DNA of 64,000 nt, from NCBI RefSeq assembly GCF_019973735.1, contig NZ_AP024463.1:1054001-1118000 (forward strand). The letters are read 5' to 3'. Source of the DNA: Arachnia rubra (GTDB taxonomy: Bacteria > Actinomycetota > Actinomycetes > Propionibacteriales > Propionibacteriaceae). The notes beneath the pieces are model-generated. The model was not told where the DNA came from. It searched no databases and worked only from the letters and a program-made list of their open reading frames with translations. Shown piece after piece: positions 9,711 to 36,448 of this stretch. The stretch's first letter is position 1. Every line of letters starts with the position of its first letter. A program made the translations under genes and the position numbers.

Positions 9711-9744
9711 GTGCATTCAAGACGGCAGGTTTTGTTTTAAGAGG

Positions 9745-16922: not shown

Positions 16923-17009
16923 GTGACTGCTTGGCGGGATATACCTAACGGTGGCCCTGTGGCTAGCTGGGAGACAGCGCCTGCGTCGACGGCGGGCTGC
17001 TGGTGCTGA
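16923..17009 (+). CDS. 28-residue peptide overlapping the MFS start (leader peptide or precursor?)
   Basis: A short ORF from GTG 16923 with a strong Shine-Dalgarno GAGGGA (16912-16917, five-base spacer). It encodes TAWRDIPNGGPVASW and ends GCWC before TGA 17007-17009. The MFS start GTG 17003 lies inside its last two sense codons, so translation of the two would be coupled. It is rich in Trp (3), Gly and Ala and has two Cys at the very end. I do not recognise it. A regulatory leader for the exporter is the simplest idea; a modified-peptide precursor is possible, but no modifying enzyme is next to it. Confidence 0.4.
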   Translation: MTAWRDIPNGGPVASWETAPASTAGCWC

Positions 17010-20591: not shown

Positions 20592-21758
20592 CGGTCGATT
20601 TGGTCCTTGACGTTGACGCACTGCGACATAGAGCGTTCCCCGCGTCACCCGTGAGCTGGCCTATCTTGCACATGCGGCGGTGGCATTGTTGCTTGCTGTA
20701 ACGGTCGATGCCATTACCGGCCTCGCCCAGCGCGCCGGCCCGCGCGGCCAGTTCGAGTACCTGTTGGGGGACGCCGGGTCGCAGGTACGTGGGCTGGCCG
20801 CAGCCATGCTGGCGGTGTCGGCCGACGAGGTCGCCCTTGTGCCGTTCACCTCGGCCGGACTATCAATGGTGGCCGCAGGGCTGGAATGGTGACCGGGCGA
20901 CAACACCGTGGTTGAGGCTGGCGACTTCCCGTCCAACACCTACGTGTGGCGGGCACTACGCCACCTCGGCGTGCAAGTTCGGGAGGTCGAAGTCGGCCCG
21001 TCCCTCTCAGTCGCATGCATCTTCAGCCATGCGTCAACGAACGGACTTGCCTCGTTGCGTTCAGTAGCACCCACTACTTATCCGGCCGACCCGTCGACGA
21101 CCTGTGCGGCATTGACGTCTTGCTGTGCGTCGACGCGATCCAGACTCTCGGGGCGCAACCGCTGTGCGGCCGCCACATCGACTTCACCGTGGCGGACGGT
21201 CACAAGTGGCTCCTAGCGCCAAAAGGGATGGGAGTGCTTTCGGTGCGGAGCGAGCTGTTTCCCTTACTGCCTCTGGCCGTCCTAGGATGGCGGTCCGTGG
21301 ACGATTATCGCAGTCTTTGCGTCCGGGAGACCCTCGCCAGTACCGCCCGCCGCTACGAATCAGGTAGCCTGAACGAGATGGGGCTGATCGGTCTGGAGGC
21401 CTCCTTGGGACTACTCGTTCAGGTCGGTCAGCACCATGACCCCAAACGGTTGCGGGTGGCTAGGCTACAGCTAGTGGGCGGACTGCGCGCGCTCGGTCTA
21501 CCGGTGCTGGGTACCCCTAGGCTCCACGACTGGGCCGCTATAGTCAGCTTTCACATGCCGGATACGCATAGTGCAGAGGTCGCGCGCGAGCTTCAGCGGG
21601 CCGGGGTCGTCGTGTCCGTTCGGTACGAAACCTCCGGTACAGAATTCCTCCAGTCCGCGCCGCACCTCTACACCACTGACGATGACATCGACCGGCTGCT
21701 CGACGCCCTTTCGGGGCACTCGAAGTGTCAGTCACGGCACGAAGGGACGAAGCAATGA
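20586..21758 (+). pseudogene. Class V aminotransferase-like PLP enzyme, three lesions
   Basis: Ancestral start ATG 20586 overlaps the preceding gene. A frameshift near 20645-20660 separates MLTVDLVLDVDALRHRAFP from ELAYLAHAAVALL. TGA at 20890 interrupts SAGLSMVAAGLEW/PGDNTVVEAGDF, where relatives have Arg (CGA to TGA). A third shift near 21010-21055 leads into FSSTHYLSGRPVD, CVDAIQTLGAQP and the PLP-lysine motif TVADGHKWLLAPKGMG. The rest is intact to 21758. The fold is that of isopenicillin-N-epimerase/cysteine-desulfurase enzymes, the family I associate with lincosamide LmbF/CcbF, which act late on the sulfur arm. No active product is expected. Confidence 0.85.
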
Positions 21759-22732
21759 TCAAGCTGGACGACGGGAGACGACTGCCTGCCGCCCACGTAA
21801 ACTGGACCGCTCCCGCCGCTGCAGGTCGCGTCCGGTCCGGGGCTGGGGTCGACGTACGCCGTCTCCTACCGCCCTTTGAGGTTGTCACCATGCTGCACTC
21901 AGCGCGGGCATGGGAACGACACCACGGCCCGGTCGACCTTTACACCGACCAGGACGGGTACCGGTGGCTTACGCACTGGGGCCTCGAAGATCTGTACCGC
22001 GCCATCGACCTCAATGTGCTGGCCAGCGTTGACCATAAGCTCTACGACCCTTCGACCTACTACACTCTCGGCAAAGTGTTTGCCTTGGCCGCGTCAAATA
22101 CCGCACTGACTTGGCTTGATACTGATCTTTACCTGCACCGCCCCATTGAGAACCTCGGTGGTGAGGTCTTCGTGGTTGCCCACCGTGAAGCCGTCGGCAA
22201 CGTTGTCTACCCCACCCGGGACCGGCTGCCCGACCCAAACGGCATCGTTGAGGACGGGTGGGACTTCAGGAGGTCAGCCGCCAACACGGCGCTGGCCTAC
22301 TTCGGCTCCGCCGTGCACCGGGATGCGTTCGTGCGCAGCTGTCTGGCGTTTGCCGCGCGGAACCATACACCCATCGAAGGGTATGACCCCCGGCCGGCCT
22401 TCGCGGAGCAGCGCGTTTCGGTGTTTGAGGCGGCCTCGCTCGGTGTCCCGGTGCGCTGCGTCGTCGACACCGTCTGGGACCCTGCGGCGCGTGAGTGGGA
22501 TCCGGTACCGACGGACGCCGCCTTCCATCACACCTGGCGGGAGAAGAAGCGCCTGGCCAGAAACCCCGTGGCCGCTCGCGCATACCTACAGCAGGAGGTC
22601 ATCTGCTTTATCAGCCGTTTCCCTGACGATGCTGACCGGATATCCCGGCTCGCTGAGCGCGGCCTTTTCGACTCGATCTGTGACGCGGCCGACGTGTACT
22701 CGTGGGTGGATCAGGCGGGAGCGCTGCGGTGA
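21755..22732 (+). CDS. Putative glycosyltransferase with DxD motif (DUF6734-like)
   Basis: A 325-residue soluble protein. FEVVTMLHSARAWERHHGPV and DLYTDQDGYRWL resemble the nucleotide-binding half of capsular GT32-like/DUF6734 proteins; Asp122-Thr-Asp124 (TWLDTDLYLHRP) is the likely metal-binding DxD. The start ATG 21755 overlaps the pseudogene stop (ATGA) and has AAGGGA upstream; its stop overlaps malQ (TGATG). The acceptor is unknown. In the island it could transfer a sugar to the octose or an oligosaccharide. Confidence 0.6.
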   Translation: MIKLDDGRRLPAAHVNWTAPAAAGRVRSGAGVDVRRLLPPFEVVTMLHSARAWERHHGPVDLYTDQDGYRWLTHWGLEDLYRAIDLNVLASVDHKLYDPSTYYTLGKVFALAASNTALTWLDTDLYLHRPIENLGGEVFVVAHREAVGNVVYPTRDRLPDPNGIVEDGWDFRRSAANTALAYFGSAVHRDAFVRSCLAFAARNHTPIEGYDPRPAFAEQRVSVFEAASLGVPVRCVVDTVWDPAAREWDPVPTDAAFHHTWREKKRLARNPVAARAYLQQEVICFISRFPDDADRISRLAERGLFDSICDAADVYSWVDQAGALR

Positions 22733-24633
22733 TGAGCTGTCCGAACCCAATCGAAGTGGCGGCCTCGTGGGGTGTAATGGTCGAGCACGTTGACGGTCTG
22801 CGTCGGGTGCGCCAGCTCGATCCCGTCGTCGCCGCCGATCTTGTGCGCTACCTCGGCGGCGATCCTGAAGAGGCCCGTCAGGACGTGGCCGCGTCGATAC
22901 TCACGGTTCGCGGCGACGAACCGGTCGCCTTCGCCGACAAGGGCGAACTCGTCCTGGCCAACGGCCAAATGGTGGCGGTCTCACCGGACGTCCCAACTAC
23001 CGTTCCAGTCGGCTACCACAGATTCTATCCGACCGGGTCTATGGAGCCTGTGACCGTGGTGGGCAGCCCTGCGGTTGCCGCACCCACCCCAGGCCGCGGT
23101 TGGGGACTCAGCGTGCAACCCTACGCCCTGCGCTCCAGCCAGGACTGGGGAATAGGTGACCTGGGCACGGTGCGCGACCTCGCGCGCTGGGCGGCGCAGC
23201 AGGGGGCGACAACGTTGTTGCTCGGTCCGATGCTCGCCGCCGCACCGACCACACCCCGCGAGCCGAGCCCGTACTACCCGGCCACACGCCTTTTCCTGGA
23301 CCCGCTCTATCTGTCCATGCAGGACGTGCGCGCACCGGACGGAACGCCTGTTGCTGTGTCCCGTCCGGCGGGACTCAGTGACTCCGCTGATGCGCCGATC
23401 GACCGCGATGCGGTGCATACCGCCAAGTACGCCACGCTGAGGGCGCTCTGGACAGACCTTGATGGCAGTCCGGACCCCTTGCTGCAGGACTTTCTTGCCG
23501 CCAGTGCGCTTCCTGTGCAGCTCTTCGCCACCTGGTGCGTCCTTACCGATAAGCTCGGGGGCGATTGGCGACAGTGGCCAACGGAACTTCAGGACCCGCG
23601 TTCGGCGCAGGTCGAAGCCTTTGCAGAGCAGCACGCTGATGATGTCAGTTTCCATGTCTGGCTGCAGTGGATGTGCGAGCAGCAGATGGCGAGGATCGCT
23701 GGCGAAATCGACGTCATTAACGACCTACCGGTCGGCTTCGACCCCGGCGGCTTCGATGGCTGGTTGTGGCAGGAGGCACTAGTCCCACAGGTGCGTATCG
23801 GTGCTCCGCCGGATGGATTCGCGCCTGATGGCCATGGCTGGGACAGCGCTCCCTTCTCGCCGATGGCCTTGGAACGGCTGCGGTTCGCGCCGTTGGTGGC
23901 GGTCTGGAGGGCGAACATGGCTCGTGGCGCAGGCCTGCACCTAGACCATGCAATGCACCTCACCAGGCTGTTCTGGGTGCCGTGGGACAGGACGCCGGCC
24001 GAAGGGGCGTATGTTGAGTACCCTTTCCGGGAGATCCTCGACCTATTGGTGCTGGAAAGTGTTGCGAATAGCTGTTACGTGGTAACGGAGGACCTCGGAA
24101 ATGTCCCCTCCGATTTCCGGCAGCAGATTGGGGAGCGCGGCCTTCTACGAACAATCATTTTGTGGTTTGTCAAGATTCCCCCGAACAAGTGGCCCGAAGC
24201 CGCAGTTGCCTACGTCTCGAACCATGACCACCCGCCGGTGGCGGCAGTCTGGGCCGACCACGACGCTGGCGCAAGGTTGATCGACGTCGATCCGCAAAGT
24301 GAGGAAGCGTTTGCCCGGCTGTCGCACCATCAGCGCCTCGTCGCGCTAGGTGAGGGGACGCCGGTCGATGCAGACCTGTTCACCGCGCTCCGCCGGACTC
24401 ACGAGGGCCTAGGGCGCAGCGGAGCCGGCCTCGTACTAAGCCAGGTGCTCGACCTGATGCTCGGGGCTCAGCGGGTGAACTCTCCCACCGGCGACCGGTC
24501 GCAGAGCTGGCGCACGTCTCTGCCAATGCTGCTCGATGATCTGGTGGAGGATGAGGTGGCGCGTGAGCTGTGTAGCGTGCTCGCCGCCGCGCGCAATAAG
24601 GACCGATCCGACTTCGACCTCACGGGAGGATAA
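22732..24633 (+). CDS. malQ: 4-alpha-glucanotransferase (GH77, MalQ family; LmbQ-like position)
   Basis: A 633-residue amylomaltase, moving alpha-1,4-glucan segments between chains. After a beta-rich N-terminal domain (about 1-110), GH77 motifs follow: GLSVQPYALRSSQDWGIGDLG, PSPYYPATRLFLDPLYL, nucleophile Asp405 (GLHLDHAMHL), acid/base Glu453 (VTEDLG) and Asp499 (SNHDHPP). The Arg two residues before the nucleophile, nearly invariant in the GH13/GH77 clan (RIDH), is His403 here. The gene starts inside the GT stop. A gene of this family sits next to the transaldolase gene in the lincomycin cluster (lmbQ, as I recall). Catalytic triad complete but activity may be altered. Confidence 0.87.
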   Translation: MSCPNPIEVAASWGVMVEHVDGLRRVRQLDPVVAADLVRYLGGDPEEARQDVAASILTVRGDEPVAFADKGELVLANGQMVAVSPDVPTTVPVGYHRFYPTGSMEPVTVVGSPAVAAPTPGRGWGLSVQPYALRSSQDWGIGDLGTVRDLARWAAQQGATTLLLGPMLAAAPTTPREPSPYYPATRLFLDPLYLSMQDVRAPDGTPVAVSRPAGLSDSADAPIDRDAVHTAKYATLRALWTDLDGSPDPLLQDFLAASALPVQLFATWCVLTDKLGGDWRQWPTELQDPRSAQVEAFAEQHADDVSFHVWLQWMCEQQMARIAGEIDVINDLPVGFDPGGFDGWLWQEALVPQVRIGAPPDGFAPDGHGWDSAPFSPMALERLRFAPLVAVWRANMARGAGLHLDHAMHLTRLFWVPWDRTPAEGAYVEYPFREILDLLVLESVANSCYVVTEDLGNVPSDFRQQIGERGLLRTIILWFVKIPPNKWPEAAVAYVSNHDHPPVAAVWADHDAGARLIDVDPQSEEAFARLSHHQRLVALGEGTPVDADLFTALRRTHEGLGRSGAGLVLSQVLDLMLGAQRVNSPTGDRSQSWRTSLPMLLDDLVEDEVARELCSVLAAARNKDRSDFDLTGG

Positions 24634-24635
24634 CC

Positions 24636-25288
24636 ATGACGAAGGTCTACGTCGACAGCGCAGACGTGGAGGAGTGCGCATACTGGTTTGCCACCGGCCT
24701 CGTCGTGGGAACCACCGCTAATTCCACGCTAGTACGCACTGCCGGTGCGCTGAGCCTGTGCGACCTCGCGGGCCAGTTACTGGCGCTCGATCCCACTGAG
24801 CTGCATCTGCAGGTGCTGCCGGAAGACCCAGCGGAGGCCTTCGACCAGGCAAGGACGCTGGCGGCGCAGGGTGACAAGGTGCGGGTTAAGATCCCACTGC
24901 TAACCGGCTCTGGTGAGCTCCGGACGTCGCTCATCAGTCGCTGCGCGCAGAACGGCATCAAGGTCAATGTCACTGCGTGCACTACCCCAGGGCAGGCGAT
25001 GGCAGCTGTGGGCCTTGGTGTGAGCCATGTCAGCCTGCTGTGGTGCCGAATGCGCGACGCCGGCATCAACCCAGCCCGGGCTCTCAAGCAGGTCACTGCT
25101 CACCGTGACCGCAGTGGTTTGTCGGCCAAGACAGTGATTGGCAGCATCCGCAAACCGGCGGACGCTTCAGACGCACTCGCGGCTGGCGCGCAGTACCGTC
25201 GTCAGTTCTGCGGGCGTGGCTGGCCCCGGACCCGAGCCGCCTGTTTGCTGAACAGTTCAGCACCGACTCTGTCCACCTCACGCTGTGA
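24636..25288 (+). pseudogene. Transaldolase (LmbR-like, FSA/TalC type) with C-terminal frameshift
   Basis: A small TalC-type transaldolase; LmbR makes an octulose 8-phosphate in lincomycin biosynthesis. Start ATG 24636 has GGGAGGA. Schiff-base lysine is Lys85 (VRVKIPLL), followed by VNVTACTTPGQA and GSIRKPADASDALAAGA. After about residue 187 the current frame becomes Arg/Cys-rich and ends at 25304. The alternative frame reads VLRAWLAPDPSRLFAEQF and stops at 25288, overlapping the next start as GTGA. That overlap shows the ancestral end, so one or two bases are lost or gained near 25190-25215. A real lesion or a read error cannot be told apart here. Confidence 0.85.
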
Positions 25289-26475
25289 GCGGCGGGATGG
25301 TTGAGCAAGAAGTGGGCACTGCTATTGAGCCGGTCGTGGTGCCGTTCGCAGCGCCGTACCTCGGGAGCGAGGAGCAACAGGCGGTGCTGTCCGTCGTCGA
25401 GAGCGGGTGGATCGGGACCGGCGAGGTCGCGCGCGACACTGAGTCCCGGTTCGCGACCTACCTGAATGTCCCGCACGCGCTGCTACTGAGCTCCGGCACG
25501 GCTGCCTTACACCTGGCACTGCTAGGACTGGGCGTCGGTGCGGGCGATGAGGTCGTGGTGCCGACTGTAACCTTCACGGCGACAGCAGCCACGGTCGTGC
25601 ACGCTGGGGCGCGGCCGGTGCTGGTCGACGTTGAGCCTGAAACGCTGAACATCGACCTCGAGTCTGCGCGTCGGGCCCTCACGCCGCGCACCAAGGCCCT
25701 CGTTATCGTGCATATGTCAGGCCGGATGGCCGATGTACGTGCTGCCAGGAAGTTCTGCGATGAGCACGGGCTGCGTCTCGTAGAGGACTCCGCGCACGCG
25801 CTCCCGGCAGAGCGGGACGGCATTACCCCCGGCGCACTGTCGGACGCCGCAGCTTTCTCGTTCTTCGTCACCAAGCCGCTCACCAGCGCGGAGGGCGGTC
25901 TGCTTGTCACACCTCACGCGGACGTTGAGCAGAGATGCCGCGTGCTGAGTAGACACGGTATCGACCGAAGCACGCACGACCGGCACCGTTTCGGCCGCTC
26001 GCCCCACTACGACGTAGTCGCCGCCGGGTTCAAGTACAACCTGCCAGATATCCTCGCGGCGGTATTGCGGTGCCAGTTGGCGCGTGCTGACGAGTTGCAC
26101 GCGCGGCGCGCTGGCATCGCCCGCATCTATCTGGAAGGGCTGGACGGCGTCCCGGGGCTCGACTTGCCGCCCGCCGACACTCGTACCAACAGATCGTCCT
26201 GGTACCTATTCATCGTCCGCATCCCGGCGCACCTCAAGCGTGACGAGCTGGCCACCCGGCTGGCGGCCGACGGTGTGGGCACTAGCGTGCATCTGCGCCC
26301 GCTCCACCAATTCAGCTACTACGCCGATCACTTCCCCACCGATCCGGCCCATGTCCGGGTGGCTGATGAGGTGTACCCTCGGCTACTCTCTCTTCCCATC
26401 TTCCCAGCGATGACAGACGAGCAGGTCGCGCATGTCGTGAGCACTGTCCGCAGGCACGCGATGGCCCGGTCATGA
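25285..26475 (+). CDS. DegT/DnrJ/EryC1/StrS aminotransferase (LmbS-like)
   Basis: PLP-dependent sugar aminotransferase, 396 residues. Motifs are SSGTAALHLAL (PLP phosphate), VVVPTVTFTATAA, EDSAHALPAE and the Schiff-base Lys197 in FVTKPLTSAEGG, with the C-terminal SVHLRPLHQF and YPRLLSLPIFPAM typical of the family. LmbS and CcbS install the amino group on the GDP-octose of lincosamides; the gene sits between the transaldolase and nucleotidyltransferase genes as lmbS does. GTG 25285 overlaps the ancestral transaldolase stop. Confidence 0.9.
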   Translation: MSGGMVEQEVGTAIEPVVVPFAAPYLGSEEQQAVLSVVESGWIGTGEVARDTESRFATYLNVPHALLLSSGTAALHLALLGLGVGAGDEVVVPTVTFTATAATVVHAGARPVLVDVEPETLNIDLESARRALTPRTKALVIVHMSGRMADVRAARKFCDEHGLRLVEDSAHALPAERDGITPGALSDAAAFSFFVTKPLTSAEGGLLVTPHADVEQRCRVLSRHGIDRSTHDRHRFGRSPHYDVVAAGFKYNLPDILAAVLRCQLARADELHARRAGIARIYLEGLDGVPGLDLPPADTRTNRSSWYLFIVRIPAHLKRDELATRLAADGVGTSVHLRPLHQFSYYADHFPTDPAHVRVADEVYPRLLSLPIFPAMTDEQVAHVVSTVRRHAMARS

Positions 26476-27161
26476 GGCAGGTCGTCGTACTGTGTGGGGG
26501 CGCTGGGACCCGGCTGCGTCAGATCACCAGGGGATCACAGAAGTGCATGGTTGAGGTCGCTGGGGCACCATTCCTCGCCCACGTGCTCGGCGTGGTCGAC
26601 CAATGGAAGCCGGACGAGGTGCTGTTGCTGGTGAGCCACCACGCCGAACAGGTCATCGCGTTCGCGGCGTCGTCCGAGCGGCCGTACCGGGTAAAGTATC
26701 GGCGCGAGGCTACGCCGGCAGGGACAGTGGGCGCTCTGCGCGCTGCAAGAGGTCTGCTTGCCTCGGAGTTTCTGCTCGTCCTCGGTGACGTCCTGCCCCC
26801 GAAAGTCGGTCGTATCTGGGAGCGCCTGGTACAGGTGGCACAGCGCACCAGCGCTGCGGCGGTCATGACGACGGCCGCTGCGTCGCAATCGATGGACCAG
26901 GGGAATATCGACGTAGACGCCGACCTGGTTGTGTCCTACGACAAGTCTTCGCCGTTGCCGCTAATCGACCGCGGGACGCGGTACCTGCGGGCAGACGCAC
27001 TCGACGCGTTCAGTGGCAACGATGACGATACTTTTTTCGGATCGATGGTGCCGACGCGAGCGCTCGCCCACTTATTTGTCGAAGGGCCGGTGCTCGACGT
27101 TGGCACGCCGGAGCGGCTACAGCGAGTGCGGTCCGCACTGGTAGGGTTGCATCGTGCCTGA
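26472..27161 (+). CDS. Sugar-1-phosphate nucleotidyltransferase (LmbO/HddC-like)
   Basis: A 229-residue nucleotidyltransferase activating a sugar 1-phosphate. Motifs are LCGGAGTRLRQ, the Lys region KCMVEVAGAPFL, ATPAGTVGALRAAR and LVLGDVL, then VLDVGTPERLQRV at the end. HddC makes GDP-heptose and LmbO makes GDP-octose with this fold, so GTP is the expected donor, though sequence alone does not prove it. Coupled to the aminotransferase by ATGA, and its end overlaps the kinase start by eight bases. Confidence 0.87.
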   Translation: MRQVVVLCGGAGTRLRQITRGSQKCMVEVAGAPFLAHVLGVVDQWKPDEVLLLVSHHAEQVIAFAASSERPYRVKYRREATPAGTVGALRAARGLLASEFLLVLGDVLPPKVGRIWERLVQVAQRTSAAAVMTTAAASQSMDQGNIDVDADLVVSYDKSSPLPLIDRGTRYLRADALDAFSGNDDDTFFGSMVPTRALAHLFVEGPVLDVGTPERLQRVRSALVGLHRA

Positions 27162-28137
27162 CGCAATAGTCTCGGCTGCCCCGATGCGCCTTCCAGTGGC
27201 CGGCGGTGGCACGGATCTACCGGAGTTCTACCAGCGGAGCCAGACTCGGGTACTGGCCGTGGCGATCGACCGCGAGGTCGTCGTCTCCGTCGCGAGCGAT
27301 CCCGAGGCCGCGCGCGCCGCGGTCCCGTCGCAGGCCGGGTGGTACTGGGTCGAGCACGCTGCCGAATCCGCCGACCCATACGTCGGCGCCGCAGCCGCCT
27401 GCCTAGAGACCGCGCCAGTCGTTCACGTCGTTGTAACCTCACCGATAGCACCCGGCTCGGGTCTTGGCGGGTCGGGCGCCTACCTGGTCGCACTCGTCGA
27501 TGCGCTCGCACGCCATGTCGGTCGGGTCTTGCCAAAGCCAGAGATCGCCGAGATCGCATTCACCATCGAGCGTGACCTGTTGGGCCGTACGGTCGGTAAA
27601 CAGGACAGTTGGGTGGCAGCGATCGGTGGCGCGGTGCAGCTTGACATCGACACTAAAGGGCATGTATTCTATCATACCCGCTTCGACTTGCTGCATGCCG
27701 CGACGCGACTCCTCAAGGACTCTCAGCTGCTCCTATTTGGCCTGCCCGAAACCCGCGACGCTGCGACAGTCCTCGCCTCGTCCGGCCTAGTCAATTCCGC
27801 GATCGTGGACACGGCGCTTCGGCTCACGGACGAGAACGAGCGCGCTTTTCTCGGCCAGGACATCAAGCAGATCGGCGCGGTGTTGCGTCGACACTGGGAT
27901 GAGAAGGTGAGGCGAAACCCCGCAGCGGACCATCCAGCCTGCCGTCGACTGACTGCTTGTGCGGACTCGATGGGTGTGCTGGGGTTCAAGGTCGTTGGAG
28001 CTGGCGGAGGTGGGCACCTGCTGGTAGCAGTGATGCCTGGTCGGGCGCAGGATCTTCGGGCGTCGATGGCCACATGGGGCCTGCGGCACATACGAGTGCG
28101 ACCAGTTGCGACCGGTCTGCGCAGATGGTTTCGGTAG
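27154..28137 (+). CDS. GHMP kinase (LmbP/HddA-like sugar 1-kinase)
   Basis: A 327-residue GHMP kinase. APMRLPVAGGGTDLPEFY is the signature of D-glycero-D-manno-heptose 7-phosphate kinases (HddA), PIAPGSGLGGSGAYLVA is the ATP loop, GKQDSWVAAIGG the substrate region and VVGAGGGGHLLV the C-terminal GHMP motif. Expected role: phosphorylation at C1 of the C7 or C8 aldose phosphate before GmhB-type dephosphorylation. The start is GTG 27154 inside the previous gene. Confidence 0.9.
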   Translation: MPDAIVSAAPMRLPVAGGGTDLPEFYQRSQTRVLAVAIDREVVVSVASDPEAARAAVPSQAGWYWVEHAAESADPYVGAAAACLETAPVVHVVVTSPIAPGSGLGGSGAYLVALVDALARHVGRVLPKPEIAEIAFTIERDLLGRTVGKQDSWVAAIGGAVQLDIDTKGHVFYHTRFDLLHAATRLLKDSQLLLFGLPETRDAATVLASSGLVNSAIVDTALRLTDENERAFLGQDIKQIGAVLRRHWDEKVRRNPAADHPACRRLTACADSMGVLGFKVVGAGGGGHLLVAVMPGRAQDLRASMATWGLRHIRVRPVATGLRRWFR

Positions 28138-28186
28138 GCGGTCGCTGCGATGATTTCATGACCACTAGAGGAAGTATGAGGATGAC

Positions 28187-29179
28187 GTGCGGGTAGGTAT
28201 TGTGGGAGCCGGGCTGCAGGCCAACCGACGGTTGGCGGCGCTGGCGCCGGAAGACCGACTGGTCGCGCTGTACTCCCAGCGAGATAGGCGCGCCGAAGCA
28301 CTTATTGAGAGATACGGCGGCGAAGCGGTCGACAATTGGCAGGACCTCGTGGCGCGAAAGGACTTGGACGCCGTGATCGTTGCCTCGCCGCCGAGGTCAC
28401 ATCGCGAGATCGTCGTCGCGGCACTGGAGGCCGGAAAGCACGTGTTGTGCGAGAAGCCGCTTGCCGCGTCCAGTGAGGAGGCAACGGTAATGGCAGAGGC
28501 CGCAGCCCGGCGGGGCCGGATCCTAATTTGCGGCTTCAACCATCGGTTCCACCCGGCCATCACGGCCGCGCGCGAGCTACTCGAGACTGGAATCCACGGT
28601 AGAGTGCTAGCGCTGGACGCTGCCTACGGACACGGCTTGCGCGGCGGGTATGCAGAAGAGTGGCGGTCCGACCCGGCGCAGGTATCTGGGGGGCAGTTGA
28701 TGGAGCAGGGCATCCACCTAGTGGATTTAGTCGAGTATCTGGTGTCGCCCGTCGACGCCGTGGTTGCCCGGCTAGGCCACCACTTCGCCCTGCCGGGCAA
28801 CCTTGAGGATGACGCGCGCCTGCTGCTTGCCCTGCGTTCGGGTGTGACCGCCACTGTGCATAGCAGCCTCGCCTTCTGGCGCAACCGCTTCACGTTCGAG
28901 GTCACGTGCGAGCGGGCGACCATCCGGGTCGTGGGCCTCGGTGGTTCGTACGGGGTGGAGACTTTGGTGGTCGAACCCCGCATCGATGGTCCGTTCCGTC
29001 AGGAGATCACCGAGTTTCGCGGCAGCGACTGTTCCTGGGATCGTGAGTGGGAGTATTTCCGGGAGGCGACGGCGCGACCGCAGCACCAGGAGAGCGACGC
29101 TGGACGGCGAGCTCTCGCCGTCGTCGAGGCCGCCTACCGGTCAGTGAAACACCAACGATGGGAGCAGGTTGCGTCATGA
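28187..29179 (+). CDS. Gfo/Idh/MocA-family oxidoreductase (LmbZ-like)
   Basis: A 330-residue NAD(P)-dependent sugar oxidoreductase: Rossmann VGIVGAGLQANRRL at the N-terminus, VIVASPPRSHREIV and the catalytic-lysine motif CEKPLAAS, then GFNHRFHPAI. LmbZ/CcbZ belong to this family and act on the GDP-octose before transamination. Start GTG 28187 with GAGGA upstream; the 49-base gap before it is the largest inside the core block. Its last codon overlaps the SIS gene start by ATGA at 29176. Confidence 0.87.
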   Translation: MRVGIVGAGLQANRRLAALAPEDRLVALYSQRDRRAEALIERYGGEAVDNWQDLVARKDLDAVIVASPPRSHREIVVAALEAGKHVLCEKPLAASSEEATVMAEAAARRGRILICGFNHRFHPAITAARELLETGIHGRVLALDAAYGHGLRGGYAEEWRSDPAQVSGGQLMEQGIHLVDLVEYLVSPVDAVVARLGHHFALPGNLEDDARLLLALRSGVTATVHSSLAFWRNRFTFEVTCERATIRVVGLGGSYGVETLVVEPRIDGPFRQEITEFRGSDCSWDREWEYFREATARPQHQESDAGRRALAVVEAAYRSVKHQRWEQVAS

Positions 29180-29793
29180 CTACAGCAGACGAGATCGCGA
29201 CGTTGTGGAGGAATTCCGCCGATGCATTCAGCCGAATTAGCGGTAAAGACATCCTGAGCGCCGCCGAGGTTTTGCACCAGGTCCGGGTGCGCAACGGCGT
29301 CGTTCTCGTTGCCGGCAATGGTGGTTCCAGCTCGACCGCGGCGCATTTCGCGGCGGACCTTACGAAGTTCACTCGTCGGACAGGGTGGCCCCACTTGCGC
29401 ACCGTGTCTCTGACGAACGATGTTAGTTGCCTCACTGCATGGACGAATGATGAGGACCCCGCGCTGGCGTTGGCGCACCTCGCTGAGCCATGGCTACAGG
29501 GTGAGTACCCAGTCGGTACGAACGCCGTGGTGCTCTTCTCCGTGCACGGGGGCTCGCGGGACGGATTGGTATCGAGCAATCTAGTCGAGCTCGCGAGTCT
29601 CGCAAGGTCGCACGGTACTGCGGTCATCGCCGTCACCGGCTTCGACGGGGGTGCACTGGGCGACCTCGCTGACGTGCACGTAAACGTGGAGATGGATGTG
29701 GAGCCATACGCAACACCGGGAGTGGAGTCGCTGCACCTACTGGTCGCGCACGCCATCTGCCTCGCGATGCGCACTACGGGGGAAGAGCTGTGA
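29176..29793 (+). CDS. SIS-domain phosphosugar isomerase (GmhA-like; LmbN isomerase part)
   Basis: A 205-residue SIS protein related to sedoheptulose-7-phosphate isomerase: VLVAGNGGSSSTAAHFAADL and DLTKFTRR, LTNDVSCLTAWTND and VVLFSVHGGSRDG (usually STSGNS). It should isomerise a ketose phosphate to the aldose phosphate. LmbN in lincomycin biosynthesis is this domain preceded by a carrier-protein domain; here I start at ATG 29176 (ATGA overlap), and the longer open frame to 29047 does not encode a carrier domain. So the fused carrier is absent. Confidence 0.87.
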   Translation: MTTADEIATLWRNSADAFSRISGKDILSAAEVLHQVRVRNGVVLVAGNGGSSSTAAHFAADLTKFTRRTGWPHLRTVSLTNDVSCLTAWTNDEDPALALAHLAEPWLQGEYPVGTNAVVLFSVHGGSRDGLVSSNLVELASLARSHGTAVIAVTGFDGGALGDLADVHVNVEMDVEPYATPGVESLHLLVAHAICLAMRTTGEEL

Positions 29794-30749
29794 ACGGACG
29801 AACGCTGGTCACCGGCGGCGCCGGCTTCATTGGCAGCCATGTCGTTGACGCACTCGTCGCCGAAGGGCGCACGCCGGTGGTTGTCGACAACCTCTCTAAT
29901 AGCACGATGCGATGGATCGCACCGCACGTGGAGGTCGGGACGTGCCTATTCGAGCAGATCGATATTCTCGACACCCAGGCCCTTCAGCGTGTAATGGACA
30001 GCAACGAAGTCGACGACGTCGTGCACCTCGCTGCAAGCGTTGACATGCGGGTGGGCCTTGTCAACAACTGGGTTGACGTAGAGCAGTCCGTCCTCGGAAC
30101 CCGCTCAGTGCTGGAGGCAATGCGCGCCACCGGCTGCACAAGAATCGCGTTCTCGTCGTCATCCACGGTCTATGGCGAGCCTACGCAGCGGCCGACGTCG
30201 GAATCGTATGGACCCCTTCTACCCATCTCTGTGTACGGCGCTTCCAAGCTGGCGGCCGAGGCGTTGATCTCGTCCTACAACCACCTGTATGGCATAGAGG
30301 GGACTATCCTGCGTTTTGGTAACGTCGTGGGCGGCCGTCTCAACCACGGCGTCGTGTATGATTTTCTACATAAGCTGCGTAAGGACCCCACGAGACTTGA
30401 AGTGCTCGGTGATGGATGTCAGCGCAAGAATTACTTCTTAGTTGAGGATTGTGCTCGGGCCCTTCTCACCTTTCCGGCTCACACCGCTGGCGGTATTCTG
30501 GTCGCAAATCTCGGAGCAGAAGACACCGTCAGCGTGTCGGAGATCGCGCAGATGGTCGCCAAGGAGCTCGGGGTCAATCCTCTGATCGAGTTCGGCGCTA
30601 CAAGCCGTGGCTGGCCGGGAGACGTCCCGGTGGTCGAGTTCGACCTCTCGCTGGCCCATGGGCTCGGCTGGCACGCATCCGTCACGTCGCATGACGCGCT
30701 GGTCACGTGCGTGCGTCGACTACTGCAGGAGCACAGAACCAATGGGTGA
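29790..30749 (+). CDS. NAD-dependent epimerase (LmbM-like, UDP-glucose 4-epimerase family)
   Basis: A 319-residue extended SDR: TLVTGGAGFIGSHVVDALV, SSSSTVYGEP, catalytic Tyr149-x3-Lys153 (SVYGASK), RFGNVVGGRLNHGV and a C-terminal substrate domain. LmbM is a GDP-octose epimerase of this family. Start GTG 29790 overlaps the previous stop (GTGA), and its stop lies inside the next gene start. The neighbouring SIS, Gfo/Idh and dehydrogenase genes argue for the octose pathway instead of galactose metabolism. Confidence 0.87.
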   Translation: MNGRTLVTGGAGFIGSHVVDALVAEGRTPVVVDNLSNSTMRWIAPHVEVGTCLFEQIDILDTQALQRVMDSNEVDDVVHLAASVDMRVGLVNNWVDVEQSVLGTRSVLEAMRATGCTRIAFSSSSTVYGEPTQRPTSESYGPLLPISVYGASKLAAEALISSYNHLYGIEGTILRFGNVVGGRLNHGVVYDFLHKLRKDPTRLEVLGDGCQRKNYFLVEDCARALLTFPAHTAGGILVANLGAEDTVSVSEIAQMVAKELGVNPLIEFGATSRGWPGDVPVVEFDLSLAHGLGWHASVTSHDALVTCVRRLLQEHRTNG

Positions 30750-32022
30750 GGTCGTTGTCGTGGGGGACTGGCACCTCGCGTCGGTCACGTCAGCGGGTCT
30801 GCTCAACCTTGGCTACTCTGTTCGGGGTTGGGACCGTGATAGGGATGCGCGCGAGGTCCTCGAGACACTTGGCGGCACGGCCGGTGAACCTGGCGTGGCC
30901 GATGTTTTGGCGACCGCTGCCGCCGACGGTCGCTACGTCGTGCTGGCCGATGAGGTGGACTTGGACCAGGCGCTGGGGGGCGCGGGGCTTGTTGTGGTGG
31001 CCTACGACTCGCGTACGACCGTCGACGGCGAGATCGACGACTCGCGCTCCGAGGATGCGGTCCGCGCACTACTGGAGCGCGGTGTCAGCGGACCGGCAAT
31101 AATGCTCTGCAGTCAGGTTCGGGCAGGCACCTGCGAGCGGCTTCTGCGATCGAGCGGCCTGCCGGCGGACAGCCAGGCGTTGGTCCACGTGCCCGAGAAC
31201 CTGCGGCTCGGGTCGGCACTCGAGGACTTCCTGCACCCCGAGCGCCTTGTCGTGGGCTGCGATGCTCCGGAGCTTCCGCCCGCAGTCGCGGAGCTAGTTG
31301 CCCGGTGGAAAGCACGAGATATCCGTCGGGTCCGGCTTGTGGAAGCCGAACTGGTCAAACACGGCACGAACGTCTTTCTGTCCATGTGCATCGTCTTCGC
31401 TAATGATCTCGGGTGGATCGCCCGCGAACTCGGCGCAGACCCGGTCGCCGTGACGGAGGCTGTCCGGGCAGACTCGAGGGTGAGCCCAAAGGCCCCCCTA
31501 CGCCCCGGACAGGCATATGCCGGCGCGACGCTGCAGCGCGATGTCCGGGCGCTGTGGGAGGTGGGTGAATTGTTCGGCCGCGATACCCTATTCGCTGCGG
31601 TCAGCCGCTCGAATGCCAGCCATGCGCTCGCGCCGGTGGCTCTCCTAGACCGGATTCTCGATGGTCTGTATCAGCGGCGCGTGTGCCTGCTGGGGCTGAC
31701 CTACAAGCCGGGGATCGCGACGCTGCGAGACTCACCGGCCCTGCGACTAGCCAAAGAGCTCACTGCGTTCGGCTGTACGGTGACGGCGCACGACCCACAC
31801 GCGGAACAAATCGCGCTCGATGCGGTTGACCGCCACTGCACGGTTTCATCCGCGGCAGCCGAAGCTGACTGCGTTGTGCTGGTCACCGCCCACGAGGAGT
31901 ACCGGTCGCTCGACCTGGGCTCACTGCCCGTCCGCCGACCGAACCTGCTTAACCTGTGCGCGGCCGCCTCAAATCTGCGCGGGCATGACGGATGGCAGCT
32001 GCACGACATGTGGGGAAAATGA
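30742..32022 (+). CDS. UDP-glucose/GDP-mannose dehydrogenase-like protein without catalytic Cys (LmbL-like)
   Basis: A 426-residue three-domain dehydrogenase. The N-terminal Rossmann domain is divergent. The central helix domain has VEAELVKHGTNVFLS (Lys206, Asn210), and the C-terminal NAD domain has VCLLGLTYKPGIATLRDSPA. At the GGxCxPKD motif the protein reads AGATLQRD, with Thr263 where the nucleophilic Cys should be. Without it the classical four-electron oxidation to a uronic acid should not work. A two-electron oxidation of a secondary alcohol to a ketone is plausible and agrees with LmbL, assigned to octose C6 oxidation. Start ATG 30742 overlaps the epimerase by eight bases. Confidence 0.86.
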   Translation: MGEVVVVGDWHLASVTSAGLLNLGYSVRGWDRDRDAREVLETLGGTAGEPGVADVLATAAADGRYVVLADEVDLDQALGGAGLVVVAYDSRTTVDGEIDDSRSEDAVRALLERGVSGPAIMLCSQVRAGTCERLLRSSGLPADSQALVHVPENLRLGSALEDFLHPERLVVGCDAPELPPAVAELVARWKARDIRRVRLVEAELVKHGTNVFLSMCIVFANDLGWIARELGADPVAVTEAVRADSRVSPKAPLRPGQAYAGATLQRDVRALWEVGELFGRDTLFAAVSRSNASHALAPVALLDRILDGLYQRRVCLLGLTYKPGIATLRDSPALRLAKELTAFGCTVTAHDPHAEQIALDAVDRHCTVSSAAAEADCVVLVTAHEEYRSLDLGSLPVRRPNLLNLCAAASNLRGHDGWQLHDMWGK

Positions 32023-32028
32023 GGCGGG

Positions 32029-32595
32029 ATGTCAGATCGATGGGCGGTATTCTTTGACCGTGACGGTACCTTAAACGCGCACGTAGCGCGCGATGACCGC
32101 CGGAGTTCGCCATGGCGAATCGACGAGTTCGCGCTCCTGCCGGACGCCGTCGTGGCAGCCGCGGCCCTACGTGACGCTGGGGCGCGCATGTTCGTCGTGA
32201 CGAATCAGCCCGACCTACAACGCGGCCTACTCGACCCTTGCGACCTGGACAGCATGCACTGCCAACTGCGTGAGATACTCGTCCTTGACCACGTCTACGT
32301 CTGCCCGCACGTTGCGGCGTTACGGTGCGCGTGCCGCAAGCCGGCGGGCACCCTATTCCGCCGTGCGGTCGAGGAGTTCGGGATCGACTTGAGCCACTCT
32401 TGGATGCTCGGAGATCGGGCCACTGATGCCCAGGCGGCGCTGTCTGCCGGACTGCGCGCCGTAATCATCACGCCTGTGCAGCGGGCTACCGAGAGTACTG
32501 TGCCGGAACTTTCCTATGCCACTAGCCTGATGAGCGGCGTCCGCGAAGTTTTGCGGGCCCGAGATATCCGACACACGATTAGGAGTACGGAATGA
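32029..32595 (+). CDS. HAD-family phosphatase (LmbK/GmhB-like)
   Basis: A 188-residue HAD phosphatase of the histidinol/heptose-bisphosphate type. Nucleophile Asp10 and Asp12 in FFDRDGTLN, VVTNQPDL, the zinc loop CPH...CACRKP and LGDRATDAQAA. GmhB and LmbK remove the distal phosphate from a heptose or octose 1,7/1,8-bisphosphate. Start ATG 32029 has GAGGCGG just upstream. It ends in an ATGA overlap with the synthetase-like gene. Confidence 0.9.
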   Translation: MSDRWAVFFDRDGTLNAHVARDDRRSSPWRIDEFALLPDAVVAAAALRDAGARMFVVTNQPDLQRGLLDPCDLDSMHCQLREILVLDHVYVCPHVAALRCACRKPAGTLFRRAVEEFGIDLSHSWMLGDRATDAQAALSAGLRAVIITPVQRATESTVPELSYATSLMSGVREVLRARDIRHTIRSTE

Positions 32596-33512
32596 AGCTG
32601 GGAACCGTCATCGCCACTCAGGAGATCGAGCAGATGGCCGGCGGCGATGTGACCGCCGAGGCCCTCGATCGAGGGTGGATTCACGAGTTTGCCGAAGGGC
32701 AGTACATCTATGGCGCTCCGTGGGTCAGGCTCCTGCGCAAGCTGCAGAGCGCGGTGCTCGACCGTGCCGCCGAACTCGGCTTTGAGGAGTGGTTGTTCCC
32801 GCGGCTGATCCCGCGCGAGGCCCTCGACAGCTTCCGCCTCAGCCAGTACGCACCGGAGCTGCTCGTTCCCGCAGGCATCGACGCCGATCAAGTGCTTGAT
32901 CCTGTCCAGTGCATCAGCCTTTACCAGATGCTCCGTGGCCGTGAGCTCGACATCTCCACGACACCGATCCGTATCGTCGAGACCCTCGGCGGGTGGACGT
33001 GGCGCAACGAGCTGTCACGCCACCTAGATGGCCCCATTAAGGCGCGGGAATTCATGCGGGTCGAGCATGTGTTTCTGGGCAGTCGGGACGACGTCCGGCG
33101 TATCCGCGGCGAGGTACGTGAGGCCTTGACCGGGCTGCTGAGTAGCTGGGGTCTTGCCTGGCAGGTCGTCGTCGCTGAGGGCTGTATGGAGATCCCGTCG
33201 CTGGTACAGATGCAGGAAGATGCTCAGACCCCCGATGAGGTTCCGGTGCAGGACATTGAGGTGCCGCTTAGCAGTTTGCGCGCCGACCGGTTCCGGCCCG
33301 AGTGGGCCAACCACTTCGATGACCGCTTCGACCTGCGCGAGATCTCCGGCTGCTCCGCCGAGGGCAACCACATGACCCAGAGTTTCGGGATCAGCAGCTC
33401 GGATGGCGAGGAACTGTGGAGCGGTTGCTGCGGTATCGGGATGAACCGGCTCGTGGTCGCTTACCTCTACCGCCACGGTTTCGACGACGCTCTGTCCAGC
33501 CTAAATGGCTGA
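32592..33512 (+). CDS. Class II aminoacyl-tRNA synthetase-like enzyme (archaeal-type SerRS core)
   Basis: A 306-residue catalytic core with no tRNA-binding N-terminal domain. Motif 2 is KAREFMRVEHVFLG (Arg156, Glu158); motif 3 is SGCCGIGMNRL (Arg286). Cys107 (DPVQCISLY), Glu158 and Cys279 or Cys280 match the places of the zinc ligands of archaeal-type SerRS and amino acid:carrier-protein ligases, where the metal holds the amino group. It most likely activates a small amino acid for the product. Lincomycin uses LmbC/LmbD and a carrier domain for this; none are seen here, so this enzyme may replace them. Neither partner nor substrate is known. Confidence 0.75.
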   Translation: MKLGTVIATQEIEQMAGGDVTAEALDRGWIHEFAEGQYIYGAPWVRLLRKLQSAVLDRAAELGFEEWLFPRLIPREALDSFRLSQYAPELLVPAGIDADQVLDPVQCISLYQMLRGRELDISTTPIRIVETLGGWTWRNELSRHLDGPIKAREFMRVEHVFLGSRDDVRRIRGEVREALTGLLSSWGLAWQVVVAEGCMEIPSLVQMQEDAQTPDEVPVQDIEVPLSSLRADRFRPEWANHFDDRFDLREISGCSAEGNHMTQSFGISSSDGEELWSGCCGIGMNRLVVAYLYRHGFDDALSSLNG

Positions 33513-34872
33513 CCACCGGGTGGCAGTGCTCCTAGTTACAAATGAGGGGTTCTACCGCGTCGACGGTGGGGTAGCGCGCTACGTCCGCAACATCCTGGAC
33601 GCGCGGGCGATTTCCCAGGAGGTTGCCGCTGCGCACGGCGTGGACCTGAGCTGGCATGTAGCCGAAAGGACGTTGGGAGGTCGTGTTGATGATGCCGCGC
33701 TTGAGCAGGCAATGGAGCAGTACATCCGCCCGGGGCACGTCGAGTTCCATCCGCTTGTCGACCCCCGCCGCTCCAACTCGGAGCCGGACCATCTGGAACA
33801 CTTCGTCGCTCTCGGCGCCGCCGTGGGGCAGCTAGTGGCACATCTCGCCCGGTCGGTTGATTCTGTCCTGGTGGTCGGCGGGATGAGTATGTTTTCGATA
33901 GCACCACGGTTCGTGCTGAGAGCCGCAGACCAGTTGGGGCTGCGCGTCAGTTACGTGCATATGACGCATAACCCGGTCATAAGCGCGCACGGCGGGGCAG
34001 ACCGGCCCGAGGCATACAGCGATGCCGTGATGGGTCACTTAGCCCGCTCTGACGAACGCGTGAACGTCGGCTGGGAGTCTGCGTGGATGCGTCGGCAGTA
34101 CGCGAGCGTCTACGGCATCGACGAGGATGACATGATCTTCGCTCGTGCCGGGGTGCCGACCAGCGACGCGAAGTTTCGGCGCCAGTCCGACGCGACCGTG
34201 CACCATACGCTACGCGCCCTCGGCGTGCCACTCGATCGGCCCCTGGCGCTCAGCTGGGGTCGCGCGGGGGCAGGGAAGGGCTTCTCGCTGCTCGTCCGCG
34301 CATGTCGGGCGATTGATGACCGGGTCGTGCCCGTGGTACTGAATCCGGTACCCAACCAATCGTTGGCGCATACTGTGGCCGCGCTCGAGTCGTCTGCGGT
34401 GCTACTGGACGGTCAGGACGATGACGTCATCTCAGCGCTGTGTCAATGGGAGGGTACGCTCACAGCGACCTTCTTGTCCTGGGGAGAGGCCGCTTCGGTC
34501 ACCCCGATTGAGGCGGCGCTAATGAGCGACGGAGGGGGATCAGTGGTGTCAGCCGTCCCGACCGGAGTGTATAGGGAACTGGTGGTCCCCGGACGAAACG
34601 GCGTCCTAGCGGAGGATCGCAGCGTCGACGGTGTCGCCCGGATGCTTGACTGCCTCACCCGAATGCCCCTCCAAGAGCGAGTTCGACTTGGCGCCGTCGC
34701 CGCCGAGGACGCCCGACGCCACCACGACTTCGCCACGAACTGGCGTACCACCCTGAACGAAGCGCTTGGGCGACACCTTCACGTTATCAGCCGGTCGGCG
34801 GCTCAGCGTCGCGACTTGCAGCGTCAGCGGTTCCTCTACGCACCCGGGCCAGACCGGGAGGCCGTTCGATGA
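33505..34872 (+). CDS. Glycosyltransferase, GT4-like (candidate LmbT role)
   Basis: A 455-residue GT-B protein: N-terminal GGVARYVRN (acceptor domain), a middle LSWGRAGAGKGFSLLVRA and the donor-side WGEAASVTPIEAALMS carrying the E-x7-E-like pair. Start ATG 33505 overlaps the synthetase-like gene by eight bases. Last gene of the main operon; an IS5-type remnant and IS3 copy D follow. In lincosamides LmbT joins the GDP-octose to ergothioneine; position in the operon suits such a role but I cannot prove homology to LmbT from the sequence alone. Confidence 0.72.
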   Translation: MADHRVAVLLVTNEGFYRVDGGVARYVRNILDARAISQEVAAAHGVDLSWHVAERTLGGRVDDAALEQAMEQYIRPGHVEFHPLVDPRRSNSEPDHLEHFVALGAAVGQLVAHLARSVDSVLVVGGMSMFSIAPRFVLRAADQLGLRVSYVHMTHNPVISAHGGADRPEAYSDAVMGHLARSDERVNVGWESAWMRRQYASVYGIDEDDMIFARAGVPTSDAKFRRQSDATVHHTLRALGVPLDRPLALSWGRAGAGKGFSLLVRACRAIDDRVVPVVLNPVPNQSLAHTVAALESSAVLLDGQDDDVISALCQWEGTLTATFLSWGEAASVTPIEAALMSDGGGSVVSAVPTGVYRELVVPGRNGVLAEDRSVDGVARMLDCLTRMPLQERVRLGAVAAEDARRHHDFATNWRTTLNEALGRHLHVISRSAAQRRDLQRQRFLYAPGPDREAVR

Positions 34873-34937: not shown

Positions 34938-35161
34938 ATGGCAAGAGCGGCTCGTTTCAGAAGCCGTACTCCGGCAAACACCATCAGGCTGGGGTTAACA
35001 TCCAGATCCTCGCAGACACCCACGGTCGGCTGCAATGGGCATCACCCCCTCTACCCGACTCCACCCATGATGCCACAAGTGTTCGATGCCCATGCCATCC
35101 TCGCCCATCTTACAGCTGACACAATCATCGCTGACACGGGCTACATCGGTCGAGGTCTCAT
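34938..35161 (+). pseudogene. IS5-type transposase fragment cut by IS3 copy D
   Basis: One frame reads SGKHHQAGVNIQILADTHGR and then PLPDSTHDA, then shifts to HLTADTIIADTGYIGRGLI, which matches the central part of the IS5-type transposases at 10668 (SGKHKTTGVNVQ, GDKGYIGLGM). It ends exactly at the IS3 copy D edge, and the matching 3' part is not found beyond the IS. Bases 34873-34937 hold nothing I recognise. Confidence 0.7.
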
Positions 35162-35205
35162 TGGAGTGCTATGGGTTTTGTGGACACTACTGAAAAATGG
35201 GATTT

Positions 35206-36042
35206 CTAGGCTGCTTTCTGGTGTTGGCTCCATTCTTGGTGGACGTGGTTGGGGGTTCGGTACCCTAACGCCGAGTGAAGTCGTTTCTGATTGTAACGTA
35301 ACTCGATCCAGGCTGTCACATCCTTTATAGCATGTTTCCGTGTTGGGTAGATCTTCCGGTTCACTACCTCCTTCTTGCAGGTGGCATTAAATGATTCCGC
35401 TGCGGCATTGTCGTAACACGACCCAGTTCTACCTACCGAGGCACGGATACCATATGTGTTCATGATTTCCGCGTAATCAGCTGAGGTGTATTGCGAACCA
35501 CGATCCGAATGGAAGACGGTTTCACCTCGGGTTACTGGGCAATTTCTGACTGCCATGTGTAAAGCCTCGGCAACAAGCCGGGTGCGCATATTCCCGGCGA
35601 TCGCATAACCGATGATCTTTTTCGAGTAGCAATCCATGACGGTTGCTAGATAAGTGAATCCTTCCCAGGTGGGGATGTAGGTGATATCGCCTACCCATTT
35701 CTGCCCTGGTTTGTTGGCGGTAAAATTCCTTTTCACCAGATCCGGGCGGTGGTGAAGATCCTGGGCCGGGATGGTGGTACGGACCCGTTTCCGGGGCTGA
35801 CAGGCCACCAAGCCAGCCCGGTGCATGAGCTGACGCACCAGCTCTGGGCTCGCGTGGATTCCCCGTTCAACCAGAGCTGCGTGGATACGTCGATACCCGT
35901 AGGTTTGCTCAGACTCGTGGAAGAAATGCGTAATTAAAATAGTGAGTTCTTCCCGGCGTTTCTGCGTCTCGGATAAACCCTGATTCCGCCATCTGTAGTA
36001 GCCGGAACGAGACACTCTGGCCCAGCGGCACATCAGATACAC
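35206..36042 (-). CDS. IS3 transposase OrfB, copy D
   Basis: A 278-residue rve-type integrase-core protein, expressed in the family by -1 frameshifting from OrfA. HTH_21 region (RREELTILITHFFHESEQTYGYRRIHAALV), then catalytic Asp in KWVGDITYIP, Asp in FHSDRGSQYTS and Glu in YDNAAAESFNATCKKE. No lesion is seen, so this is the only complete OrfB of the four copies and could move the others in trans. Confidence 0.93.
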   Translation of the reverse strand: MYLMCRWARVSRSGYYRWRNQGLSETQKRREELTILITHFFHESEQTYGYRRIHAALVERGIHASPELVRQLMHRAGLVACQPRKRVRTTIPAQDLHHRPDLVKRNFTANKPGQKWVGDITYIPTWEGFTYLATVMDCYSKKIIGYAIAGNMRTRLVAEALHMAVRNCPVTRGETVFHSDRGSQYTSADYAEIMNTYGIRASVGRTGSCYDNAAAESFNATCKKEVVNRKIYPTRKHAIKDVTAWIELRYNQKRLHSALGYRTPNHVHQEWSQHQKAA

Positions 36043-36086
36043 AGGATAGCTGCCTTCCTCGCGGTGAATATAAACATATTTCGCTG

Positions 36087-36374
36087 CTACCGGGATTCCT
36101 GCGCGAAGAAGGCCGCCGCTTTTTTCAAAAACTCGATCTCCATCTTCGCTTCACGCAACTCAGCCTGCAAGCGCTTGTTCTCCGCCACCTGATCCGACGA
36201 GGCTTCTACCATACCTGGGTCGGGATGCTGCTTCCGCCATATTCTCACCCAGTTACCCACAGTTTGCGGAACCAGATTGTAGGACTTCGCCACTTCCGCT
36301 ATCGGCCGAGACCCCTCAAGAACCTCCGCGATGATTTGTTCTTTAAACTCTTTACTAAATTTCGAAGCCGGCAT
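36087..36374 (-). CDS. IS3 transposase OrfA, copy D
   Basis: 95 residues, identical in sense to OrfA of copy C: HTH (KEFKEQIIAEVLEG, YNLVPQTVGNWVRIW) then a coiled helix. The slippery AAAAAAG on the minus strand at 36119-36125 allows a -1 shift into OrfB. Confidence 0.93.
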   Translation of the reverse strand: MPASKFSKEFKEQIIAEVLEGSRPIAEVAKSYNLVPQTVGNWVRIWRKQHPDPGMVEASSDQVAENKRLQAELREAKMEIEFLKKAAAFFAQESR

Positions 36375-36448
36375 AGTACAGATTTTACCTCACATGTTCG
36401 AATAAACTCAGGTTTTTCACCACTGTCCACGAAACGCCGGGCACTCCA

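Follow-up and report, generated by a model that had tools for sequence, protein, structure and literature searches.

Can the sugar half of a lincosamide pathway be joined to an amide-forming enzyme of another kind? Lincosamides form a small class of clinically used antibiotics. The clusters described for them (lmb, ccb) have, to our knowledge, one unusual amide-forming system in common. The question is raised by a cluster of genes in a 64,000-nucleotide stretch of the Arachnia rubra chromosome, hereafter the window (bases 1,054,001–1,118,000 of the 3.32 Mb single-contig genome), in which relatives of the lincomycin octose genes are followed by a gene for a class II aminoacyl-tRNA synthetase (aaRS)-like enzyme. 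On balance we think it probable that this acquired, partly broken cluster encodes a pathway to a lincosamide-type nucleotide-activated amino-octose, with the aaRS-like enzyme serving as an amide ligase in place of the lincosamide synthetase.

Pfam and NCBIfam profile matches on the window proteins placed ten families (GH77, TAL/FSA, DegT, NTP_transferase, GHMP, Gfo/Idh, SIS, SDR, UGDH-like and HAD) in consecutive genes (Table 1), all of them where, and in the order in which, an earlier sequence-only reading of the window had listed them. The intergenic gaps in this block, −20 to +49 bp, amount to tight packing, and the genes for the aaRS-like enzyme and a glycosyltransferase lie directly 3′ of the HAD gene with no gap. 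In the lincomycin cluster of Streptomyces lincolnensis, read here as a 39.3 kb region of the reference genome, the relatives of the window genes are arranged K, L, M, N, Z, P, O, S, R, T (identities in Table 1). Eight genes, R-S-O-P-Z-N-M-L, are strictly collinear between the two, an agreement in either direction that has a chance of 5e-5 if gene order is random. The collinearity with lmb that had been claimed for the block therefore stands for these eight genes; lmbK is found at the same (L) end but on the opposite strand, and lmbT lies at the opposite end. The S. lincolnensis glycosyltransferase gives a full-length match (947 bits) to the PDB chains 8il0 and 8ixp; in the table of matches 8il0 shares its row with 8ILA, which PMC12945683 identifies as LmbT. 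The window glycosyltransferase, which has no Pfam match, is a relative of LmbT, as had been supposed.

The same 11-gene order, from transaldolase to glycosyltransferase, was also found in Streptomyces sp. Ru62 (L007), NRRL S-340 (L008) and LaPpAH-108 (L009), with 44–75% identity to the window proteins (44–46% for the transaldolase), so that the pathway cannot be described, as it had been, as one outside Streptomyces. A second Gfo/Idh gene and an aldo-keto reductase gene follow the glycosyltransferase gene in L007 and L008 and are missing from L009, and in all three strains an ATP-binding cassette (ABC) exporter (a NodI/DrrA-like ATPase and two permeases) is encoded downstream of the cassette. 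Lincosamide-type octose sets also occur in Allokutzneria (L011) and Rhodococcus (L010), outside Streptomyces.

The sugar made by such a block could in principle be a heptose, and the phylogenies speak to this point. In the SIS tree (83 rows) a branch with support 100 separated the window protein, those of L007–L009 and four lincosamide-type rows from the 75 others. Support for the same split was 82 for GHMP (54 rows), 64 for the nucleotidyltransferase (20 rows) and 29 for HAD (47 rows), and in the transaldolase tree (24 rows) the split was not recovered, yet not rejected (p-value of the approximately unbiased test, p-AU, 0.29). A heptose or lipopolysaccharide-type reading is accordingly ruled out for the SIS protein; for the HAD, nucleotidyltransferase and GHMP proteins the support, too low alone to decide, leans towards lincosamide, and the transaldolase does not decide. 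Whether the SIS, GHMP, HAD and nucleotidyltransferase proteins would group with heptose enzymes was the check by which the sequence-only reading had proposed to be refuted; the outcome favours a lincosamide relation, for which the SIS evidence is clear and that of the others weak, and supports its view of a lincosamide-type amino-octose block as opposed to a heptose cassette. In the UGDH-like protein all eight octose rows, the window included, have Thr where the catalytic Cys would be (L025 reads GSCFPKD there); since three of five other UGDH rows also have Thr (L029, L053 and L061; Cys is kept in L012 and L025), this residue alone is no proof. The Lys region of the transaldolase, KVRVKIP, is retained, and the active-site motif of the nucleotidyltransferase is unlike that of LmbO. 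The predicted assignment to a lincosamide-type octose pathway is, in our judgement, well supported, and we hold it with considerable confidence.

How the amide might be formed was approached by comparing the lincomycin region (39.3 kb; all 172 six-frame open reading frames, ORFs, of at least 80 aa) with window positions 7001–43500 at E 1e-5. Among the printed ORFs of at least 150 aa, only the octose genes, lmbT, Erm and their shadow frames gave matches; neither the lincosamide synthetase (LmbC, carrier protein and LmbD) nor the mycothiol-exchange and tailoring proteins LmbV, LmbE and LmbF had a relative there, lmbC, D, E, F and V being presumed to lie among the unmatched ORFs. L007–L009 gave the same outcome with two exceptions: an ABC-ATPase match close to the exporter, and a gene lying 3 kb beyond the cassette in L008. 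Pfam and NCBIfam scans detected no carrier protein in the block, and none of the 15 PF00550 carrier-protein matches in the Arachnia genome lies inside the window. The absence of condensation and tailoring genes, noted earlier from the sequence, is thereby upheld; the pathway is nevertheless less ‘reduced’ than it had been called, as the aaRS-like gene, which had gone unlisted, offsets the loss. Because the island has no relatives of the other lmb ORFs and no carrier protein, the aaRS-like enzyme is the obvious candidate for the amide-forming step, and on sequence grounds we lean towards this as the most economical reading.

The aaRS-like protein corresponds to the catalytic core of type-2 seryl-tRNA synthetase (SerRS), which is its nearest relative in both fold and sequence. 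Its invariant residues C107, E158 and C279 align with type-2 SerRS cysteines and a glutamate, which we take to be the zinc ligands of those enzymes. It is the best-conserved member of the cassette (73–75% identity to L007–L009) and is rare, being encoded in 1 of 146 relatives and 1 of 396 genomes across the phylum (in both cases only the window's own genome) and in 3 of 392 Streptomyces genomes (L007–L009). We found no open-access literature on SerRS-like carrier-protein ligases in gene clusters, nor any description of an aaRS-bearing lincosamide variant among the matches listed, judged by open-access titles and the beginnings of abstracts.

The LmbT residues named in PMC12945683, where Trp101 is described as stacking on ergothioneine, were compared in a glycosyltransferase alignment of 26 rows. 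Trp258 and Arg260 are retained in all 26 rows, Gln313 and Trp101 in 23 each and Arg290 in four. The window protein has Trp258, Arg260 and Gln313, and lacks Arg290 and Trp101; at the latter position Ser is found in the window protein and in P0104, and Ala in P0094. As P0104 is from a Streptomyces, loss of Trp101 is not tied to genera without ergothioneine. In the window's genome no EgtD was detected at E 0.001 (all five other genomes searched have one), and MshC is present. Ergothioneine may thus be the thiol of the Streptomyces versions, in which Trp101 is kept, whereas the enzyme in the window would depend on a different thiol or on ergothioneine taken up from outside.

Predicted resistance genes accompany both versions of the cassette. 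The Erm gene already recognized in the window passes the cut-off of the broad Erm model. The model that fits it best, the producer-type ErmE/H/O/R family, gives 315.3, short of the 320 required, and the Erm-type gene in the lincomycin region is about 36% identical to it. Elsewhere among 31 genomes (its own included) the top-scoring match is 45% identical and comes from a genome of another family; within the genus the top-scoring match is 35% identical. To judge by sequence, the window Erm is likely a self-resistance gene. In the three Streptomyces strains an Lnu-related gene lies divergently, just upstream of the cassette (L007 4541–5074, L008 4528–5043, L009 4623–5138, all on the minus strand); Lnu(AN2) is its best NCBIfam model (E 4e-44 for L007 and 1e-40 for L008, below curated cut-offs), and the L009 protein is 71.5% identical to that of L007. 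No such gene was found in the window, in L010, in L011 or in the two lincosamide regions. The Streptomyces gene is a possible producer-side relative of the Lnu(A)/Lnu(AN2)-type lincosamide nucleotidyltransferase resistance genes.

The proposed pathway builds on the gene families, their order and synteny, the residues, the SIS phylogeny and the island described below, and takes the function of each step from LmbR, N, P, K, O, M, L, Z and S. The transaldolase would form octulose 8-phosphate, which the SIS protein would isomerize; the GHMP kinase, HAD phosphatase and nucleotidyltransferase would then give a nucleoside diphosphate (NDP)-octose, on which the SDR, Cys-less UGDH-like, Gfo/Idh and DegT enzymes would install the 6-amino group. 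The LmbT-like enzyme would move the octose to a thiol; this may be ergothioneine in the Streptomyces versions and another compound here. An amino acid would be activated as its adenylate in the zinc-containing site of the aaRS-like enzyme and, since the cluster encodes no carrier protein, passed directly to the 6-amino group, much as in MshC. Self-protection would be provided by Erm in this genome and by the Lnu-like nucleotidyltransferase in the Streptomyces versions, and from this pair of resistance genes the predicted product is likely a lincosamide-like ribosome inhibitor. Saskemycin (PMC12637814) was considered as a possible product and set aside as unrelated.

The cluster lies on an island that is likely to have been acquired horizontally and is partly broken. 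Between glmS and the GT4 gene (window 43488–44594) the distance is 3.7 kb in L121 and L122 and 2.1 kb in L123 (the same-genus loci are L120–L123, of which L120 does not extend to glmS), whereas in the window about 35 kb intervenes. Some of the sequence in this same-genus gap has its match in the window as far as about base 8250, and the island begins with an IS3-type insertion sequence (IS), one of four copies with pairwise identities of 96.7–99.6%. Window positions 7957–9347, which overlap this first copy, match six plasmids at about 77–80%, four of the six carrying an IS256-family transposase label. Two further genes on the island, a GH13 maltodextrin-glucosidase-like and a GlgA/MshA-like glycosyltransferase gene (38040–41071), form with malQ a second, glucan-related module. 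Although malQ ends 2 bp upstream of the transaldolase gene, none of the related clusters read contains a counterpart of it, and it was dropped as a pathway gene. The class-V aminotransferase was tried as an equivalent of LmbF and rejected, no match better than E 0.9 being found in lmb, G272, L010 or L011.

Table 1. Features of the window; positions are counted from its first base, and identities are to the lincomycin-cluster proteins of S. lincolnensis.
Feature	Position	Strand	Remarks
Acquired island, edges approximate	8413–43465	.	Not found between glmS and GT4 gene in same-genus loci read
IS3-type copies	8413–9711, 11260–12553, 13178–14470, 35158–36448	last one −	Last copy between glycosyltransferase gene and Gfo2 remnant
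MFS transporter, possible exporter	17003–18193	+	Profile match
Two SDR nucleotide-sugar dehydratase/epimerase-like genes	18526–20591	+	Role not assigned
Broken class-V aminotransferase-like gene	20632–21758	+	In-frame stop, frame change
Uncharacterized protein	21725–22732	+	Weak DUF6734 match, below cut-off
MalQ-like GH77	22702–24633	+	Operon membership by spacing; role not assigned
Transaldolase/FSA-type, LmbR-like	24636–25304	+	35% to LmbR
DegT/DnrJ aminotransferase, LmbS-like	25285–26475	+	53% to LmbS
Sugar-1-phosphate nucleotidyltransferase, LmbO-like	26472–27161	+	32% to LmbO
GHMP sugar kinase, LmbP-like	27154–28137	+	40% to LmbP
Gfo/Idh oxidoreductase, LmbZ-like, without fused carrier domain	28187–29179	+	46% to LmbZ
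SIS isomerase, like LmbN isomerase domain, without fused carrier domain	29176–29793	+	53% to LmbN
SDR epimerase, LmbM-like	29790–30749	+	54% to LmbM
UGDH-like dehydrogenase, LmbL-like, Thr at catalytic Cys position	30736–32022	+	43% to LmbL
HAD phosphatase, LmbK-like	32029–32595	+	39% to LmbK
Class II aaRS-like enzyme, predicted amino-acid ligase	32592–33512	+	306 residues
LmbT-like glycosyltransferase	33505–34872	+	455 residues; 30% to LmbT
Second Gfo/Idh (Gfo2) remnant	36415–37196	+	Counterparts full length in L007, L008
Broken aldo-keto reductase gene	37351–38081	+	Counterparts L007 16706–17635, L008 16709–17635
Erm 23S rRNA methyltransferase, producer-type family	41937–42896	−	NF000499 253.6 bits against cut-off 212

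Several observations weigh against the pathway proposed here, and some of them lend themselves to other explanations. The GHMP, nucleotidyltransferase and HAD trees lack strong support for the lincosamide group and the transaldolase tree lacks the group itself; heptose-type GmhA, HddA, GmhB and HddC models match the block proteins, at a distance; and further sugar genes (two SDRs, the GlgA-like and GH13 genes and malQ) share the island. An amino-octose or heptose might therefore be made for a cell-surface glycan, to which the aaRS-like protein adds an amino acid, with no antibiotic involved. We consider this quite improbable, given that the SIS protein groups with the LmbN type apart from 75 other SIS rows, that an LmbT relative is present, that Lnu-like and Erm genes accompany the cassette and that the aaRS-bearing version is so rare in Streptomyces, even if the Lnu matches fall under curated cut-offs and the window has no Lnu-like gene. 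The aaRS-like enzyme could also act on a non-octose acceptor or on a carrier protein encoded elsewhere, in the latter case as an amino acid:[carrier protein] ligase, with a separate enzyme making the amide as in the LmbC–carrier protein–LmbD system. Such an arrangement seems unlikely to us: all 15 carrier-protein matches of the genome fall outside the window, the island shares only the octose genes, lmbT and Erm with the lincomycin-region ORFs, and the protein is closest to type-2 SerRS and not to such ligases. As Trp101 is replaced by Ser and EgtD has no match, the LmbT step here cannot be identical to that of lincomycin, and the nucleotide may not be GDP (guanosine diphosphate), because neither Arg290 of LmbT nor the LmbO-type motif is kept. 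The product and its activity are a prediction only.

Whether the window copy is a dead remnant, from which the genome gains only Erm-type resistance, strikes us as an evenly balanced matter. An IS copy lies inside the cluster, the transaldolase gene departs from the frame of its relatives over its last ~36 codons, the Gfo2, aldo-keto reductase and class-V aminotransferase genes are broken, Trp101 of LmbT is lost and the genome gives no EgtD match. Set against this, ten of the 11 cassette genes are uninterrupted, the motifs examined are present in the other eight octose genes (that of the nucleotidyltransferase in changed form), and a close version exists elsewhere, the nearest SIS protein among the matches listed being 89% identical (Brachybacterium sp. 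GPGPB12, P0114). A DEAD-box helicase gene outside the island (46871–48908), in one frame in L120–L122, likewise loses its frame in the window where seven C residues follow one another, so that some of the breaks could be sequencing errors; the loss of Gfo2 at an IS copy is not of that kind. With several genes broken, the pathway probably no longer works in full in this genome, which may make nothing; we think it unlikely that the strain still forms any product.

Full-length relatives of the 11 genes in three Streptomyces strains mean that the proposed octose pathway with an aaRS-like amide ligase can be tested now. If it is true, the octose pathway has been kept and the condensing machinery swapped for a tRNA-synthetase relative, which would demonstrate modularity of the lincosamide class and offer a short route, of about 11 genes, to thio-octose amides that are new. 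It would also become possible to test where Lnu resistance came from, with the producers as a possible source of clinical lnu genes. As a separate observation, relatives of the transaldolase, SIS and GHMP genes occur together, often with nucleotidyltransferase or HAD genes, at further loci (L013, L015–L022, L024, L029, L045, L053 and L061), among them loci from Chloroflexota, Gemmatimonadota, Woesearchaeota and others. Of the nine octose families L029 has eight and L061 all nine, and such loci possibly mark further higher-sugar pathways.

Among known systems, the lincomycin cluster shares with the window the nine octose enzymes, the LmbT relative, a Cys-less UGDH-like LmbL and Erm-type resistance; it differs in that the window island has no relatives of the synthetase, tailoring or propylproline genes (by the ORF comparison) and the window no carrier protein, in the additional aaRS-like gene, and in the placement of lmbK and lmbT. 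The loci of G272 (which may be of the celesticetin type), Allokutzneria sp. A3M-2-11 16 (L011) and Rhodococcus sp. 06-235-1A (L010) have the same octose set at 31–54% identity to the window, but carry further lincomycin-region relatives, and the aaRS-like gene was not found in the stretches read; the L010 stretch has no LmbT relative. The class II catalytic core of the aaRS-like protein is shared by type-2 SerRS and by amino acid:[carrier protein] ligases, of which Bll0957 is one, but unlike SerRS it has no tRNA-binding domain, and unlike the ligases its gene has no carrier protein nearby and sits in an octose operon. The mycothiol synthesis enzyme MshC, an aaRS relative by which the amine of a sugar is linked to an amino acid (PMC9437257), resembles it in that idea only, as MshC is a class I, CysRS relative and the window protein is class II. 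We rate the cluster as a sister branch of the lincomycin/celesticetin type and not a member of it, and tentatively suggest that it may represent a third lincosamide branch, in which a stand-alone class II aaRS relative would form the amide directly, without nonribosomal peptide synthetase parts or mycothiol exchange, and with Lnu-type self-protection.

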